25,118 nt of DNA from IMG/VR virus record IMGVR_UViG_3300046733_000209, positions 1-25,118 of that record; one strand, written 5' to 3'. A program made the position numbers and the translations under genes. This DNA is from a virus. Below are positions 4,706 through 25,118 of the stretch, piece after piece (position 1 is the first letter of the stretch; each line of letters starts with the position of its first letter). The notes beneath the pieces were generated by a model. That model did not search any database. It saw only the letters and a list, made by a program, of their open reading frames with translations, and was not told the DNA's origin.

Positions 4706-5410
4706 ATGGCATTACCGATTCAGTCGGCACCGACTTATAAAACAGTGCTACCTAGTAATGGTCAAGAAGTAGAATACAGACCATTCCTAGTAAAGGAACA
4801 AAAAGTTCTAGTCATGGCAAAAGAAAGCAATGACCAAGAACAAGTTATGCAATCAATCATTAAGATGCTTGATGCATGTACATTTGGTAAATTAAAAATA
4901 CCAAATATTGCTATGATGGATATGGAATGGTTGTTTATTAAAGTCCGTTCTGTTTCAGTTGGTGAAACATCTAAGTTAGTACTTGGTTGTACAGACGAAG
5001 GATGTAGAGGAAATGCAAAAGTAGATTTAAATTTGGAAGACATTGCACCCACAAGTGAAATGCCTGAAGAAGACACAGTCATGTTAACAGATGACTTGGG
5101 TGTTAAATTGAAAGTTCCTAGTGTTAGAGACATCGATGGATTGACAAAGATGGACGAAACACAACAGAGTATGGAGATTGTGAAGAGATGTATCACTTCT
5201 GTATTTGATGCCGATGAAGTGTATCCTATGGAAGATGTATCTCAAAAAGAGTTAGATGAGTTTTTTGATAGTTTGACGTTTAATCAACTAGACAAACTCG
5301 GGCAGTTCTTTGATAGTTTACCAAAACTAAGACATGAAGTAAGTTACTCGTGCGAAATATGTTCCAAAGAGAACACTAGAGTACTGGAAGGCATCCAAAG
5401 TTTTTTTTAA
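4706..5410 (+). CDS. 26: Baseplate hub / tail chaperone-like gp26
   Basis: A 234-residue protein of the T4_baseplate (gp26) family. It begins with the family pattern LPSNGQEVEYRPFLVKEQKVL, followed by WLFIKVRSVSVGE. Two cysteine pairs (C95/C100 and C216/C219) suggest a zinc-ribbon-like knuckle. A good ribosome site (GGAG) precedes the ATG. The frame ends at a run of eight T's (AGT TTT TTT TAA). The -1 frame continues for 62 more codons with recognisable tail-chaperone-like sequence. The gene lies upstream of the tape measure, exactly where siphophage and P2-type chaperones with -1 frameshifting (lambda G/GT) are found. T4 gp26 is described as a hub subunit; its role here may be as a tape-measure chaperone. 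Confidence 0.82.
   Translation: MALPIQSAPTYKTVLPSNGQEVEYRPFLVKEQKVLVMAKESNDQEQVMQSIIKMLDACTFGKLKIPNIAMMDMEWLFIKVRSVSVGETSKLVLGCTDEGCRGNAKVDLNLEDIAPTSEMPEEDTVMLTDDLGVKLKVPSVRDIDGLTKMDETQQSMEIVKRCITSVFDADEVYPMEDVSQKELDEFFDSLTFNQLDKLGQFFDSLPKLRHEVSYSCEICSKENTRVLEGIQSFF
5401..5407 (+). other. Candidate -1 ribosomal frameshift slippery site
   Basis: The heptamer T TTT TTT occurs in the gp26 frame just before its stop codon TAA (5408-5410). After a one-base backward slip, reading continues TTA ATA GGC into the open -1 frame. This form (X XXY YYZ) is a permissive slippery sequence. A perfect 6-bp stem lies about 20 nt downstream. Confidence 0.6.
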
Positions 5411-5595
5411 TAGGCCTTTCCCACGAGTCGGTGTTGAATTTTTATAACACCAACTTTCAGTTAATGCAACACCACAAGTATTCATTGACTGAACTAGATG
5501 AGATGATACCATGGGAACGAGAGGTATACATCAACCTATTACTTCAACACTTAGAAGAGGAAAGGCTAAAGAACGAACAACGAAAGAATAATTAA
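5407..5595 (+). CDS. -1 frame extension of gp26 (gp51/chaperone-like C-terminal part)
   Basis: An open -1 frame running from the slippery site to a stop at 5595, 62 codons. It reads LIGLSHESVLNFYNTNFQ then LMQHHKYSLTELDEMIPWER and a helical EEERLKNEQRKNN tail. The 'FxIGLSHxSxxNFYxTNFxLMQHHKYSLxELxxMxPWEREVY' pattern is what I recall from the small gene after gp26 in marine T4-like phages and from tape-measure chaperone extensions. The conserved residues LSHESVLNFY lie upstream of the first ATG (5464), and that ATG has no ribosome site. A fused gp26-extension protein of about 296 residues therefore fits better than a separate 43-residue protein. Confidence 0.62.
   Translation, partial: LIGLSHESVLNFYNTNFQLMQHHKYSLTELDEMIPWEREVYINLLLQHLEEERLKNEQRKNN
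5430..5451 (+). promoter_or_regulatory. Stem-loop downstream of the frameshift site
   Basis: GGTGTT (5430-5435) pairs perfectly with AACACC (5446-5451) around a 10-nt AT-rich loop. It begins 22 nt after the slippery run. This is longer than the usual 5-9 nt spacer, so its role as a stimulator is uncertain. Confidence 0.35.
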
Positions 5596-5640
5596 TATTC
5601 GTTATGTGTAAGTGATTCATAATAATAGAGGACACAAATT

Positions 5641-6027
5641 ATGAGTGACGACAAAAAAATTAGTCAAGGTAATGTCGAGATAGATGTTGCTAAGTATACA
5701 GAGATGGTCTTGAAGTTAGACGAAGCACAGGACAAAATCAAAGAGATGGAGAAGTTATCTAAGGAATTGCAAGTTGCAACAGCAGCAGCAAAACCAAAAG
5801 AAAGGTTCTCTGTTGGTGCATTGTTCAGAGATGAAAATGACATCAATGAAAAAGCAATCATAGGATTTGCATCATTCTTTTTAATGGTCGTATTCGGAAT
5901 GGCAGATTTAATTACTGCATTTTGGGATATGGACTTAAAAGTATCTGACACTATCTACACTTCATTTGTTGTAGTAACGTTAGGTGCGTTTGGAATATCA
6001 GAAGCAGGAAAAGCATTCGGAAAATAA
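5641..6027 (+). CDS. Small coiled-coil protein with two membrane helices
   Basis: A 128-residue protein. Residues 18-47 form a charged coiled coil (MVLKLDEAQDKIKEMEKLSK). Two hydrophobic segments follow at about 72-94 and 104-120. The tail ISEAGKAFGK is short and basic. The ribosome site GAGG is clear. It lies between the gp26 chaperone region and the tape measure and is separated from the latter by only 4 nt, so it is a late gene. Its shape resembles small phage holin-like or virion membrane proteins, but no lysis genes sit beside it. It could also be a chaperone partner of the tape measure. I do not recognise a named family. Confidence 0.75.
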   Translation: MSDDKKISQGNVEIDVAKYTEMVLKLDEAQDKIKEMEKLSKELQVATAAAKPKERFSVGALFRDENDINEKAIIGFASFFLMVVFGMADLITAFWDMDLKVSDTIYTSFVVVTLGAFGISEAGKAFGK

Positions 6028-13679: not shown

Positions 13680-14183
13680 TTATTTGTAAAATATGTGTTC
13701 GTTAATAACTACAGTCTCGTTCAATGAGTCTGCCCAATATGGTAATGTCCAAGTTGCATGATAATGTGTTGCACCTTCTGTAATGTCACCATACTTAGAT
13801 TGTATCACATCTCTTGCAATGTGCATAGAGGATAACCAAGTTGTACTATCCACTGGGTCGTCTGACTTACCATCACAAAACCAACTGAATTGACAAGCGT
13901 TGATTTTAGGAACCATTTCACCTTTCCAATTTGTTCTCAACTTTGCTTGGTATACTACACCACAAACAGTATCGGGATAAGCATAATGCTCAACCCTGTT
14001 TAACACTACTTGCGATACAGCAATCTTACCAGCGAGTGGTTGATTACCTGCCTCAAAATAAATGTTCTGTGCCATGCAATAGATTTCATTGTTTGGGTCT
14101 GACGCCTCAACCTTCATTGTCATAACACCACACAGGAAACCTAACAAGGCGCCTGATAAAAAACTTAAGTGTCTCATTCTCAT
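13680..14183 (-). CDS. SleB/CwlJ-type cell wall hydrolase, exported
   Basis: A 167-residue protein. Residues 1-27 are a signal peptide: MRMR, then a hydrophobic LSFLSGALLGFLCGVM and a VEA-type cleavage region. The mature part has the SleB (Hydrolase_2) pattern: CMAQNIYFEAGNQP with catalytic-type E44, then GKIAVSQVVLNRV, CGVVYQ and CQFSWFCDG. The family cuts peptidoglycan glycan strands. The chosen start shares ATGA with the lipoprotein stop and has GGAG 8 nt upstream; an earlier ATG at 14201 would add six residues. It lies directly after a lipoprotein gene, so both act at the cell envelope. It could be an endolysin exported by the host Sec system (SAR-like). Confidence 0.85.
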   Translation of the reverse strand: MRMRHLSFLSGALLGFLCGVMTMKVEASDPNNEIYCMAQNIYFEAGNQPLAGKIAVSQVVLNRVEHYAYPDTVCGVVYQAKLRTNWKGEMVPKINACQFSWFCDGKSDDPVDSTTWLSSMHIARDVIQSKYGDITEGATHYHATWTLPYWADSLNETVVINEHIFYK

Positions 14184-15808
14184 TGTATTAACTCCGAACA
14201 CTGTACATAAGGATTAGTTCTATTCATTGACTCTGCTTGTGTACTAGTGTTATATGTCAAACAGAATTCGTCACCACCAACGGTGTATGAATATGTGTAT
14301 TCTATTCCATCAATTGTTTTTGCATACTGCAATTCATCACCAGTGTACAAATATGAGATGGTATTCTGAGCATCTTCTATGTAATGTGATACACTATCGA
14401 TGGAATTTAAAATGTCTTGAGCAGTATTCAAGTCACCATTGTTAACTACAGAATTCGTATTGAAGTTGGCCATAGGGTTGCCAGGCCCAAAGGCAATAGA
14501 AAATCTATAGTCATGTGTGACCCAAAAAAGTTTACCTCTTTGGTTGGTTTGCATAGACCTATAATAGTTTGGTTTGGAGAATTGCACTCTAGTAAAACTG
14601 GTATCTGATAGGATACCATTATCATAACCACTTGCAACTGTAGAATAAAGATGTACGTCATCCATTCCCATAATATTTGTTGCTTGATGGACTGTAGATG
14701 TTTCTACACTAGAAGCAGATACAGAGATGTTACTAAATGACATGGGGATGATGTCTCCCTCATATGAATATAGATTACCATCTTTGTCTGCTGTAATACC
14801 ACTGTACAAACTTTCTGAGTAAGTCACTAAATCGTTGAACACTTGTTCCTCTTCTATTGTATGATTCATATCAAAATCTAGTGTGGTGAAATTACCACTC
14901 ATAACATCTGACATGACTCCTTCACTAAAGACATACCTATAAGGTAAGTTAACAGTATCCTCTAAAATATCCTTAGCAGTTGTTACTGTTGATATGATGT
15001 CAACAATGTCCATCGCTAATTGTTGTTTTGCAGTGTCCTCGGATTTAAAGAAATCCTCATAGAAGAAATCTAAACTGATATCGTACATTTCTAAAAATGT
15101 ATTGATGTATTGTTCTATTGCTTGAACGATGTTCTCGCCTTGAGATACAGCACCTGTACTACATGATTCGTTAATTGGATAATCTGTTACCATCAAAGAT
15201 GAAAAGAGAGGATTGATTAATGTCGTGAATGGAGTGATGTTAGTTCCGTCTGTAATGTCTCTCTCCAATACACTTGGCATCGCCATCATTTCATATGCAG
15301 TGTCTACATATCCCCTATCAGAATCATAAGCACCTTCGGGTACTACAGACATCACTGGTCTTAATGATTTACAGTAGGATGAATAATCTGTTATGTTGTC
15401 ATCTAGAAACTGTCCATTAAAATCACTTGGTGCATATTCTTCAGACTCCCTTGTTAGAAAGTAGTAATAATTATCTGGCGGGTCATATGCTCCAGTCTCA
15501 ATACATCCTTGAGAATCGTAATTGATGCAAACAGTAACAACAGGGTCAACACCCATCCAACTTGCTGATGGTTCGCCTGTATCTTGAAGACCATTGTAAT
15601 TCCAATCAAGGAACACATTAGCACCTTCGATGTATCCATCGATAACCACAAACTGGTTAGTGACATCATCTAAAGTGGTTGTGGTAAAACCTGTGTAATA
15701 GGTTATGCCAGAAGGAGCGACTACAGGGGTTAAGACCCCAGCAGCTCCACCACCGCCTCCGCAACCAACTAATATGGTTAGGGATATTAAACTTAAAAAA
15801 TATTTCAT
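14180..15808 (-). CDS. Phage-encoded lipoprotein with Ca-binding type loop
   Basis: A 542-residue protein, with an ATG at 15808 preceded by GGAG 6 nt upstream. A lipoprotein signal (MKYFLSLISLTILVGC) ends in a lipobox with Cys16, followed by GGGGG. No Asp at +2, so it should reach the outer membrane. Residues after about 65 contain DWNYNGLQDTGEPS, a D-x-N-x-N-G-x-x-D-x-x-E loop seen in dockerin and adhesin-type calcium sites. The remaining 450 residues are beta-rich with helical parts and four to six scattered cysteines, with no family I recognise. Candidate roles are superinfection exclusion, receptor masking or envelope modification. An upstream in-frame ATG would overlap the previous gene and lose the signal, so it was not used. 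Confidence 0.72.
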   Translation of the reverse strand: MKYFLSLISLTILVGCGGGGGAAGVLTPVVAPSGITYYTGFTTTTLDDVTNQFVVIDGYIEGANVFLDWNYNGLQDTGEPSASWMGVDPVVTVCINYDSQGCIETGAYDPPDNYYYFLTRESEEYAPSDFNGQFLDDNITDYSSYCKSLRPVMSVVPEGAYDSDRGYVDTAYEMMAMPSVLERDITDGTNITPFTTLINPLFSSLMVTDYPINESCSTGAVSQGENIVQAIEQYINTFLEMYDISLDFFYEDFFKSEDTAKQQLAMDIVDIISTVTTAKDILEDTVNLPYRYVFSEGVMSDVMSGNFTTLDFDMNHTIEEEQVFNDLVTYSESLYSGITADKDGNLYSYEGDIIPMSFSNISVSASSVETSTVHQATNIMGMDDVHLYSTVASGYDNGILSDTSFTRVQFSKPNYYRSMQTNQRGKLFWVTHDYRFSIAFGPGNPMANFNTNSVVNNGDLNTAQDILNSIDSVSHYIEDAQNTISYLYTGDELQYAKTIDGIEYTYSYTVGGDEFCLTYNTSTQAESMNRTNPYVQCSELIQ

Positions 15809-15809
15809 G

Positions 15810-16007
15810 TTATACTCCATGTGTGACATGGTCGTATTCATCGGGGCAATTTTTCACCCCACAAAGACAACCTTCGCCCACCTCTTCGGGTGCCATGTCC
15901 ATAGCATTGGTTGTTCCATAAGTTGCAAGATTCATCACATCATCTGCACTGAGCTTTCCACCAGTATTAGATGCAATAAGTTTTGCTTGTTCAAAAGTAA
16001 ATGTCAT
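15810..16007 (-). CDS. Small Cys/His-rich protein beside the lipoprotein
   Basis: A 65-residue protein. The N-terminal half reads MTFTFEQAKLIASNTGGKLS; the C-terminal half has GCLCGVKNCPDEYDHVTHG, a C-x-C-x4-C-x5-H...H cluster that could bind a metal. It overlaps the upstream stop by ATGA and ends 1 nt before the lipoprotein start, so it is translated in one chain. Unknown function. Confidence 0.6.
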   Translation of the reverse strand: MTFTFEQAKLIASNTGGKLSADDVMNLATYGTTNAMDMAPEEVGEGCLCGVKNCPDEYDHVTHGV

Positions 16008-18952: not shown

Positions 18953-19525
18953 CTATTTAGTAAATCTTTCCATGTCTCTGAGAGTTTCTTTATCACTCTG
19001 CACTTCTTCATAGTTTGCATGTGCCTGCATAGTCACTTCGGGAATCTCAATATCGGGATATGACGTTGTAAGGTACCAAATAGCATTGGAGATTGACTGA
19101 TATGATAATGAAGGCAATTCATGATTGATTAAACCTAAATTCATAGTAGTAATCTTACACTTCTTATCTGAATTGTAGGTGTAATTGTTAGACATGTGGT
19201 TGAGTGCCGCTTTTGCAGCTGCATACTTGTAACCTTTGGATATGTTTGGTTGTGAGGCACGTGAAGATATGTTGATGATAATCTTCTTCATATCATATCG
19301 ATATGCATTGAAAGATTTTTCCAGTAAGTCACACTGGTCAAATGGAGCGCCGAAAGCATTGTTGATAAACACATCGTATTCCTGCCATTCCCAATCTTCC
19401 CAAAGCATCAAATCTTCAATACGTGCTTCGTTGACGATATTCATTCCACCACCAACTGGTGTGGAAGTAAAAGTGTCACTAATGTTTCTTGCTAAACCTG
19501 TACTACCTGTTATTAGGATTTTCAT
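18953..19525 (-). CDS. Short-chain dehydrogenase/reductase (SDR)
   Basis: A 190-residue protein, short for the family. N-terminal nucleotide-binding pattern ILITGSTGLARN (G7, G10; the third glycine is replaced). NNAFG (N55, N56) matches the NNAG motif. The catalytic set is S87, Y101 and K105 (INISSRAS, then YKYAAAKAALNHM). Such enzymes oxidise or reduce sugars and alcohols with NAD(P). It overlaps the radical SAM gene by 23 nt, so the two are likely translated together. Substrate unknown. Confidence 0.8.
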   Translation of the reverse strand: MKILITGSTGLARNISDTFTSTPVGGGMNIVNEARIEDLMLWEDWEWQEYDVFINNAFGAPFDQCDLLEKSFNAYRYDMKKIIINISSRASQPNISKGYKYAAAKAALNHMSNNYTYNSDKKCKITTMNLGLINHELPSLSYQSISNAIWYLTTSYPDIEIPEVTMQAHANYEEVQSDKETLRDMERFTK

Positions 19526-20435
19526 AATATTCCTTCACTAGGTCAAATGATTGTTTACCAAATAAACTCCCATCGACACTACACTTGTTACAAGGGGACA
19601 TCTCTCTGTTCCCTTTCATTAATCTCTTACGAATCTTTGTCATCGGTTTGCTAAACCACACTTCATGTAGGGACATAGTCAATAGATTACCTACGACATG
19701 TTCTCTACCCCAATCGTTAGAGCAGAACAACACATCACCGTTCCAATCTACAAACATTTTATAGAATGGGTAGTGACATGGTTTACCTTTTAAATTCTCT
19801 ACACTATCATCTTCGATACCAACCCAATCAACTACACCACTACGGTTGTTTAGTATCAGTCCGTGTTTCTCAAAGTCACCCCAATGCATTCTGTATCTGT
19901 ATTGGTCTTCATGCACTCTTGCTTCTGCCATCATCAAATCAAAACCTTCCATTTGATGAATACCATCATACAGATTAATATAGAGTAAATCTAATCCACT
20001 CTTGTACAAACCTGTGACGTAGTCTGAATCTAGTTTGTCGCCGTTAGTGTTACACTCTAGTGTTGCATAAGGTAAGTTTAATCTAAACACCTTAACGATT
20101 TCTCTAAAGTTAGGATTCAATAAGTTCTCCCCAAATCCACTAAAGGATATCTTACCGTTGAATCCATTGTCGGCAAGTTCTTCTGCAATCGTGGTTGCAC
20201 CTTTAATGGTTAAGTGTAAGTTTCTATTGGGGAATACTTTAGGGTCATGTCTTGGGCAAAACACACATGTTCTATTACAGAGTTCTGTGGTGTTAATCTC
20301 TACAGTAAGAATAGAGTCAAGTTCTGTTAGAGTGCCTTTCTTTCTCTGCCAGTGTTTCTGTTCTTGTCCTCTACGATGTTCGAGAAAATCATATTGGTCA
20401 ACTGCTGTAATTGGGATGTTTCTATTTTCGGACAC
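19503..20435 (-). CDS. Radical SAM enzyme with SPASM-like C-terminus
   Basis: A 310-residue protein. The radical SAM cluster motif CNRTCVFC gives C53, C57, C60. After it come the usual strand motifs FSGFGENLLNP (GGxG-type region) and LECNTNGD. The C-terminal part has C220, C238, C282 and C285 (FCSNDWG, PCNKCSVDG), the layout of a SPASM or twitch auxiliary cluster. It starts with GTG (20435), with AAGGA 8 nt upstream. Known SPASM enzymes modify peptides or sugars. Together with the overlapping SDR it forms a modification pair, perhaps for a glycan or nucleotide sugar. Substrate unknown. Confidence 0.85.
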   Translation of the reverse strand: MSENRNIPITAVDQYDFLEHRRGQEQKHWQRKKGTLTELDSILTVEINTTELCNRTCVFCPRHDPKVFPNRNLHLTIKGATTIAEELADNGFNGKISFSGFGENLLNPNFREIVKVFRLNLPYATLECNTNGDKLDSDYVTGLYKSGLDLLYINLYDGIHQMEGFDLMMAEARVHEDQYRYRMHWGDFEKHGLILNNRSGVVDWVGIEDDSVENLKGKPCHYPFYKMFVDWNGDVLFCSNDWGREHVVGNLLTMSLHEVWFSKPMTKIRKRLMKGNREMSPCNKCSVDGSLFGKQSFDLVKEYYENPNNR

Positions 20436-24370: not shown

Positions 24371-25118
24371 TTAATCTGAAATATCTTTGCCTTTGTTTGT
24401 TAGCATGAATTTTCTTGAACAATTAATCATAACATTTGCACGAGACATGAAGTCTCGGTTTATGAGAAGAGGGATACTGCCTCTTGAATCTAATGACACT
24501 TCAGTGTCTTTGTATACAGTGTTTAGAAACTCTATATCCATTAACACTACTGGTCTTGTCTCAGCAGGTTTTTGTAATGTGACACTTCTATGTAATGGTT
24601 TAGTATGTGTCTCACCATTTAGTTTCCATGTGACTTTCTTGTTTTTAATCTCTACATCTTCTGCATGTAAAGAACATACTGAAGTAGAGTTTCCTGTATC
24701 CAACTTACCAGTCATCTCTTGACCGTCAACTATAAAGGACTCTAACACTCCACACTGTTTAGGTTCCTTTCTCCACGTGTCTCTGTCGAAGTAAAGTTTA
24801 AGAACCATTTTAGTAATGTCTTCTTCGATTGCTTCAGAGATTGCTTTACTACCAGCACTATGATTGACTTCAAGAATATAAGGTGCATCTTTATCTCTCT
24901 TATTAGCAGGAATGTAATCCACTCCAACCCATTGACCGTTCACACCTTTTGCAGCTTTAAGACATTCTTCTTTTTCCAGTTCAGTCATTTCAATCAACTC
25001 AACTGTTGCACCTTGTGATGCATTACTTCTGAAGTCGTCTGTAATCTTATTACGTTTCATTGCACCAACAATTTCTTGGTTCACTATCACGCACCTTACG
25101 TCATAGTCGGACTCAATG
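24371..25118 (-). CDS. RimK-like ATP-grasp ligase fused to a retropepsin-like domain (5' end outside window)
   Basis: The last 248 residues of a longer protein; the frame runs off the right edge. The first part is the end of an ATP-grasp fold of RimK type: DVRCVIVNQEIVGAMKR, then DDFRSNASQG, and the metal-binding strand pair GVDYIP ... YILEVNHSAG. RimK adds glutamates to ribosomal protein S6 in bacteria. The second part (from about residue 120) has KLDTGNSTSVCSLHA, a DTG aspartic-protease-type motif seen in RimB-like (PF05618-type) proteins that trim the same tails, followed by SIPLLINRDFM. The fusion of both halves in a phage protein is notable. Substrate not known. Confidence 0.82.
   Translation of the reverse strand, partial: IESDYDVRCVIVNQEIVGAMKRNKITDDFRSNASQGATVELIEMTELEKEECLKAAKGVNGQWVGVDYIPANKRDKDAPYILEVNHSAGSKAISEAIEEDITKMVLKLYFDRDTWRKEPKQCGVLESFIVDGQEMTGKLDTGNSTSVCSLHAEDVEIKNKKVTWKLNGETHTKPLHRSVTLQKPAETRPVVLMDIEFLNTVYKDTEVSLDSRGSIPLLINRDFMSRANVMINCSRKFMLTNKGKDISD

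Follow-up and report, generated by a model that had tools for sequence, protein, structure and literature searches.

In phages lambda (G/GT) and P2 (E/E'), a -1 frameshift shortly ahead of the tape measure gene yields a short and a long chaperone, the lambda heptamer being G GGA AAG. In the dnaX-type bacterial -1 signal, an internal Shine-Dalgarno-like motif about 10 nt upstream is combined with the heptamer A AAA AAG and a downstream structure. For T4-like phages, Vladimirov, Gautam and Davidson (2022, Virology 566:9-15) reportedly described frameshifting in several groups, with separate genes 26 and 51 in T4 itself. A passage of the PRFect paper (PMC10885494, citing Vladimirov et al. 2022) states that some T4-like phages have a short gene plus a longer fused gene instead of frameshifting, and a passage of the Adele paper (PMC12846349, citing Vladimirov et al. 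2022) mentions poly-T slip signals as known in TAC-N genes of T4-like phages. The arrangement examined here is known in kind, having already been reported for T4-like phages (Vladimirov et al. 2022); added here are detail on the frameshift signal and one lineage that breaks the rule. Among the literature matches listed, in which subscription journals are thinly covered, no title dealt with this locus in pelagiphage-like viruses.

The window analyzed is the 25,118-base virus record IMGVR_UViG_3300046733_000209 (positions 1 to 25,118), which carries T4-like tail genes (Table 1). The first-pass annotation had described a gp26 frame ending in T TTT TTT TAA and a -1 frame open for 62 codons, and both were found in place. 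The end of gp26 reads AGT TTT TTT TAA, giving a run of eight T (5401-5408), and the -1 frame stop closing the extension lies at 5593-5595. Positions 5410-5592 matched phrog_634, "baseplate hub assembly catalyst" (gp51), with an E-value of 1.8e-24. The extension also matched the last part of phrog_150 (positions 236-279 of 282, E 4.6e-5), a sign that fused members occur in this gp26 family. Upstream of the slip site, the -1 frame of the window is shut by a stop a few codons earlier; in contig L001, whose junction is identical to that of the window, the -1 stop is found 31 nt before the 0-frame stop. The -1 frame ATG at 5464, codon 21 of the tail, gave an anti-Shine-Dalgarno duplex of +1.6 kcal/mol and, as previously remarked, has no ribosome site. 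In-frame GTG and TTG codons (tail codons 10-11) precede this ATG with duplexes of -1.8 and -2.5. Downstream of the junction, a 6-bp stem GGTGTT/AACACC (5430-5435/5446-5451) lies within the hairpin fold.

Table 1. Features at the chaperone locus of the window and immediately downstream.
Feature	Position	Strand	Remarks
gp26 gene, short form (TAC-N), 234 aa	4706..5410	+	PF12322 T4_baseplate, Pfam E 3.8e-55; phrog_150, E 4.3e-58
Shine-Dalgarno-like GGAAGG	5386..5391	+	9 nt 5' of heptamer; duplex -5.5 kcal/mol
Slippery heptamer T TTT TTT	5401..5407	+	0-frame stop TAA (5408-5410) immediately after
-1 frame extension, 62 codons and stop, gp51-type C-terminal domain	5407..5595	+	phrog_634
Downstream hairpin, possible stimulator	5425..5456	+	11 pairs; includes the 6-bp stem
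128-aa ORF between chaperone locus and tape measure	5641..6027	+	VIT1-like Pfam match 0.0016, below cut-off
Probable tape measure protein, 827 aa	6032..8515	+	Weak matches and position

The AlphaFold2 model of gp26, based on 81 sequences, reached a pLDDT of 93.8. A Foldseek search with this model returned no solved structure at E <= 0.001, and 2ob9 appeared only at E 4.8. When the top candidates were realigned, the HK97 tail assembly chaperone (PDB 2ob9) came first with a Z of 7.8 (83 aligned residues of 107, rmsd 4.0), followed by YqbN (3klu) with a Z of 7.0, and the next row stood at 2.8. The modeled fold of gp26 resembles that of the HK97 tail assembly chaperone, a Z under 8 not being proof of kinship. 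The arrangement of 2ob9 and 3klu is like that of gp26 residues 1-87, whereas gp26 carries about 145 further residues and the identity is 5-8%. Searching PDB sequences with the gp26 profile gave a best E-value of 0.44 with no phage-related match, and NCBIfam had no match for gp26 or for the tail.

The locus had been placed before the tape measure in the first-pass annotation. It does lie shortly before a probable tape measure gene but is not adjacent to it, as the 128-aa ORF stands between them. At most residues 515-585 of the tape measure candidate matched eight phage records, each of them carrying the name tape measure (E-values of 3e-5 to 6e-4, over 6-9% of the query), and the candidate sits where HTVC008M has a "putative tail tape measure". 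Elsewhere in the window, the gene at 24371-25090 (-), whose start is near the window edge, encodes a RimK-like ATP-grasp domain (PF08443, 1.3e-15) whose match starts only at position 93 of the 188-position profile; the region after it contains a DTG motif that we take to be like that of an aspartic protease. A 553-aa protein at 14180-15841 (-) has a lipoprotein-like start (LVGCGGGGG) and no Pfam match, and it adjoins a cell wall hydrolase (13680-14201, PF07486, 1.6e-24). Finally, a Radical SAM/SPASM protein (19503-20435 (-), PF13186, 6.7e-14) lies beside an ORF with a sub-cut-off short-chain-dehydrogenase match (18953-19525 (-), 1.7e-5), the two being a possible auxiliary metabolic pair.

Conservation of the junction was examined in a first set of 96 loci, composed of the window, nine close IMG/VR contigs, six named phages and 80 IMG/VR loci picked through gp26 motifs located outside the junction. 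A tail could be placed in 95 of these, in all cases in the -1 frame and with T TTT TTN, and in the 96th (L063) the contig ends soon after TTTTTTC. The full set of 277 loci was obtained with three gp26 profiles centered on different branches, taking the best 80 of at least 600 candidates per profile, and represents a wide, non-exhaustive sample weighted to marine phages. Here the tail was placed in 272 loci, every one in the -1 frame of gp26. Of the five others, three end before the site (L006, L180 and L188) and L063 ends just past TTTTTTC; the fifth, D528 (L103), yielded no tail that passed the threshold, but on inspection by eye it has a similar -1 frame. Of these 272, T TTT TTN stands at the frame crossing in 261, whose median tail score is 104.4 bits; among distinct 120-nt junctions, 229 of 234 have it. 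The T-run and the open -1 frame are thus retained together in these 261 loci, which is what the first-pass annotation had suggested looking for. Its restriction of the arrangement to one branch of T4-like phages proved too narrow, as Kyanoviridae, Schizotequatrovirus phi-ST2, phiM12, ACP17, a Desulfovibrio phage and a Pseudoalteromonas phage share it. The junction reads T TTT TTC in phi-ST2, ACP17, the Desulfovibrio phage and Makaravirus MA01, and T TTT TTA in the Pseudoalteromonas phage.

Codon choice at the junction is strongly biased. All 87 distinct homologues have T TTT TTN, with a preceding codon that is always NNT, a first Phe codon that is always TTT and a last codon of TTT (37 loci), TTC (41) or TTA (9). 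Elsewhere in the same genes, Phe is encoded by TTT in 652 of 881 cases and by TTC in 229, and the other Phe-Phe pairs read T_TTT_TTT or T_TTT_TTC in 4 of 76 cases and have TTC first in 42 of 76. On these codon counts, the heptamer is commoner at the junction than expected by chance. In the 30 nt upstream, the most variable position is the third position of the 0 frame (1.66 vs 1.43 and 0.92 bits), and from 9 nt past the heptamer start it is the third position of the -1 frame (1.54 vs 1.07 and 0.62 bits), indicating that the 0 frame gives way to the -1 frame at the slip. Comparison with relatives brings out a conserved frame, a conserved heptamer, synonymous constraint and a chaperone-like fold.

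The T4 genes provide a comparison within the same superfamily. T4 gp51 (249 aa) has a complete gp26 domain at residues 1-201 (PF12322, E 3.9e-52) with the same tail behind it, and by its domain content it is a natural single-frame version of the long form. As proposed for the window locus, T4 has a short and a long protein with the same domains; unlike it, T4 encodes them in two divergent genes, 26 and 51, and has no heptamer. Among T4-type loci, none of the 12 with a complete gene 26 end carries the heptamer (a 13th locus is cut), and 8 of the 12 end in GAR TTC TTT. Absence of the slip site where the long form has its own gene is as the frameshift reading predicts. The model of a T4-type gp51 had a mean pLDDT of 83.6, with the tail poorly predicted in blocks of 58-69. 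In one T4-type gp51 gene (L117:1501-2260), the gp26-domain frame runs into a stop at 1861 and the tail lies in another frame, from either a broken copy or a sequencing error. In the passages concerned, a T4 review (PMC3004832) lists gp26 and gp51 as hub assembly chaperones, calls gp51 essential and without known function, and gives genetic support for gp26 as part of the hub itself. The latter would suit a structural role and counts against reading the two proteins as a chaperone pair.

Signals around the slip site were analyzed in 221 non-redundant loci; the codon tests and their p-values take no account of relatedness among the sequences. At -14, Glu is encoded by GAG in 117 of 179 cases, compared to 1359 of 5087 in the rest of gp26. 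At -11, 138 of 219 Gly codons are GGA or GGG (background 589 of 1528), and GG is present at -11/-10 in 219 of the 221 loci. The preference for GAG and GGA/GGG gives a stronger Shine-Dalgarno-like motif, the window itself using the less favored GAA GGC. Much of this likeness comes with the conserved [EQK]G residues themselves, which account for a large part of the duplex strength: other [EQK]G sites average a duplex of -5.63 vs -6.20 at the junction, and 88% vs 85% reach -4. Downstream, the mean folding-energy z was -1.31 at +7 and -1.48 at +12, against -0.10 to -0.64 at twelve places between -600 and -20. Against a synonymous-codon control keeping the -1 protein, which uses pooled codon usage and does not hold the base composition of single phages fixed, structure was in excess right downstream, with a mean z of -1.69 from +12 and 101 of 221 loci below -2. 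Further on, the same control gave -0.97, -0.46, -0.03 and -0.37 from +24, +48, +72 and +96. The 6-bp stem pointed out previously is present in the window but is hardly conserved, as all six pairs occur in 3 of 87 loci (the window included) and five of six in one more, near relatives only. Its 3' arm does not track the 5' arm (2.17 vs 2.11 pairs expected, 423 of 2000 shuffles being as good). No common downstream helix stood out by covariation in the 87 sequences, and Rfam gave no match over 5200-5700. The Shine-Dalgarno-like motif, 9 nt upstream in the window, and the downstream structure probably raise the slip rate.

We put a probability of about 0.9 on the reading that this locus encodes a short and long tail-assembly-chaperone pair by -1 frameshifting, as the first-pass annotation had proposed for gp26 and its extension; the proposal is supported by the HK97 chaperone fold match and by the identity of the tail with gp51, a listed T4 hub-assembly chaperone. 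Most ribosomes would translate gp26 as far as the TAA at 5408, giving the 234-aa short chaperone. A fraction would stall on T TTT TTT, slip back by one base, bypass the TAA and append 62 residues of the gp51-type domain, yielding a long chaperone (TAC-NC) of 296 residues in all. By analogy with lambda G/GT, the short copies may coat the tape measure protein and a few long copies may recruit the tail tube protein. We infer the slippage itself, its rate and these binding roles.

One alternative is that the tail is a separate small gene, the gp51 of cyanophage annotation, whose translation begins within gp26 or shortly past its end, through re-initiation or weak starts. Nine of the 14 annotated GenBank records with this layout do list a separate short gp51, the other five listing no gene in the tail's frame; the tail of the window offers the GTG/TTG and ATG codons described above, and D528 has TAATG at the junction. 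However, the conserved tail residues start right at the slip, ahead of any ATG in most loci, as had been noticed in part in the window, and the first ATG of the tail falls at codons 20-24 in 56 of 87 loci. Going upstream from the slip, the -1 frame meets a stop within 8 codons in the median case and 18 at the most, and 80 of the 87 loci have no start codon in this open stretch. A start with a Shine-Dalgarno sequence there or within 24 codons was found in 1 of 87 loci, compared to 59 of 86 for gp26's own start, so that a tail with its own ribosome-site start, which the first-pass annotation had named as evidence against frameshifting, is nearly absent. A separate gene also leaves the invariant T TTT TTN unaccounted for, though synonymous choices exist, and in T4 the tail is fused to the gp26 domain. 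We consider this alternative highly unlikely.

Transcriptional slippage on the T-run, with mRNAs of altered length and the long form made from edited messages, would be in keeping with the eight T of the window, but the run is exactly six T in 173 of 221 non-redundant loci. Runs of six are shorter than usually needed for transcriptional slippage, and the Shine-Dalgarno-like motif and RNA structure fit ribosomal slippage, making this route, if anything, slightly less probable than a separate gene. Homopolymers are also error-prone, and the two frames could be joined in the real genome and separated by an assembly or homopolymer error. Since the same junction recurs in nine further close IMG/VR contigs, and the same frame relation is present in isolate genomes with different stops and in all 272 placed tails, such an error is almost certainly not the cause. 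All three alternatives were rejected on this evidence.

The heptamer is missing in 11 of the 272 placed loci, namely a Kuttervirus (L101) and ten loci 95-100% identical to it in gp26 (L122-L131), whose tails score only 7.2 bits, a weak match. Their junction reads ATT TTC ATT TAA, with no tandem slippery heptamer (L101:2200-2360; L122-L131 near 2260-2420). In D528 (L103:2130-2260) the junction is CTT TTC AAG TAA, again with no heptamer and with the TAATG overlap. Loss of the T-run with both frames kept, the other finding named in advance as adverse to frameshifting, is therefore absent in 261 of 272 loci and does occur in Kuttervirus-type phages as one real exception. In some Kuttervirus members, a -1 stop directly before the junction would confine any frame change to about four codons. 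The Kuttervirus-type and D528 loci suggest that the -1 frame relation can be maintained even where a classical slip site is lacking. One joint reading, which we put forward tentatively and hold to be somewhat less than an even chance, is that synonymous selection has maintained a three-part signal (internal Shine-Dalgarno motif, T TTT TTN and downstream structure) through much of the T4 superfamily. The T4 branch would have lost this signal on dividing the pair between two genes, and Kuttervirus-type phages would have exchanged it for a -1 shift that does without a tandem heptamer and takes place around ATT TTC A, immediately ahead of the stop (around CTT TTC A in D528). If true, the Kuttervirus-type shift would amount either to a slip on a single codon, which is unusual, or to some other means of recoding.

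The comparative evidence points to a genuine, deeply conserved -1 frameshift locus that serves a tail assembly chaperone pair. According to a passage in Sullivan et al. 2010 (PMC3037559), the gp51 of cyanophages and marine vibriophages is without the ~200 residues at the start of other gp51 proteins. These missing residues correspond to the gp26 domain, and frameshifting would supply them, which accounts for the most likely nature of the short "gp51" in marine T4-like phages. The gp26 and tail frames are joined in none of the 14 annotated GenBank records with this layout; the long chaperone is thus missing from the annotation of these records. The T4 superfamily additionally allows frameshifting and separate genes to be set side by side, in a contrast provided by nature, as two routes to one chaperone pair.

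Among known systems, the T4-like gp26 (TAC-N) and gp26-gp51 (TAC-NC) pair, as far as the passages cited above describe it, is like the pair proposed for the window in having a short and a long chaperone and a poly-T -1 slip site. Compared to the T4-like phages named, the window represents an uncultured marine member, its gp26 being 27-38% identical to those of the six named phages aligned. Lambda G/GT and P2 E/E' resemble the reading proposed here in the -1 frameshift, the place before the tape measure and the short and long pair, a likeness of arrangement, and the lambda heptamer G GGA AAG differs from the T TTT TTT of the window. Finally, the dnaX-type signal has the same three elements as this locus, a Shine-Dalgarno-like motif about 10 nt upstream, a heptamer and a downstream structure, whereas here the heptamer is T TTT TTN instead of A AAA AAG and the structure is no single conserved stem.
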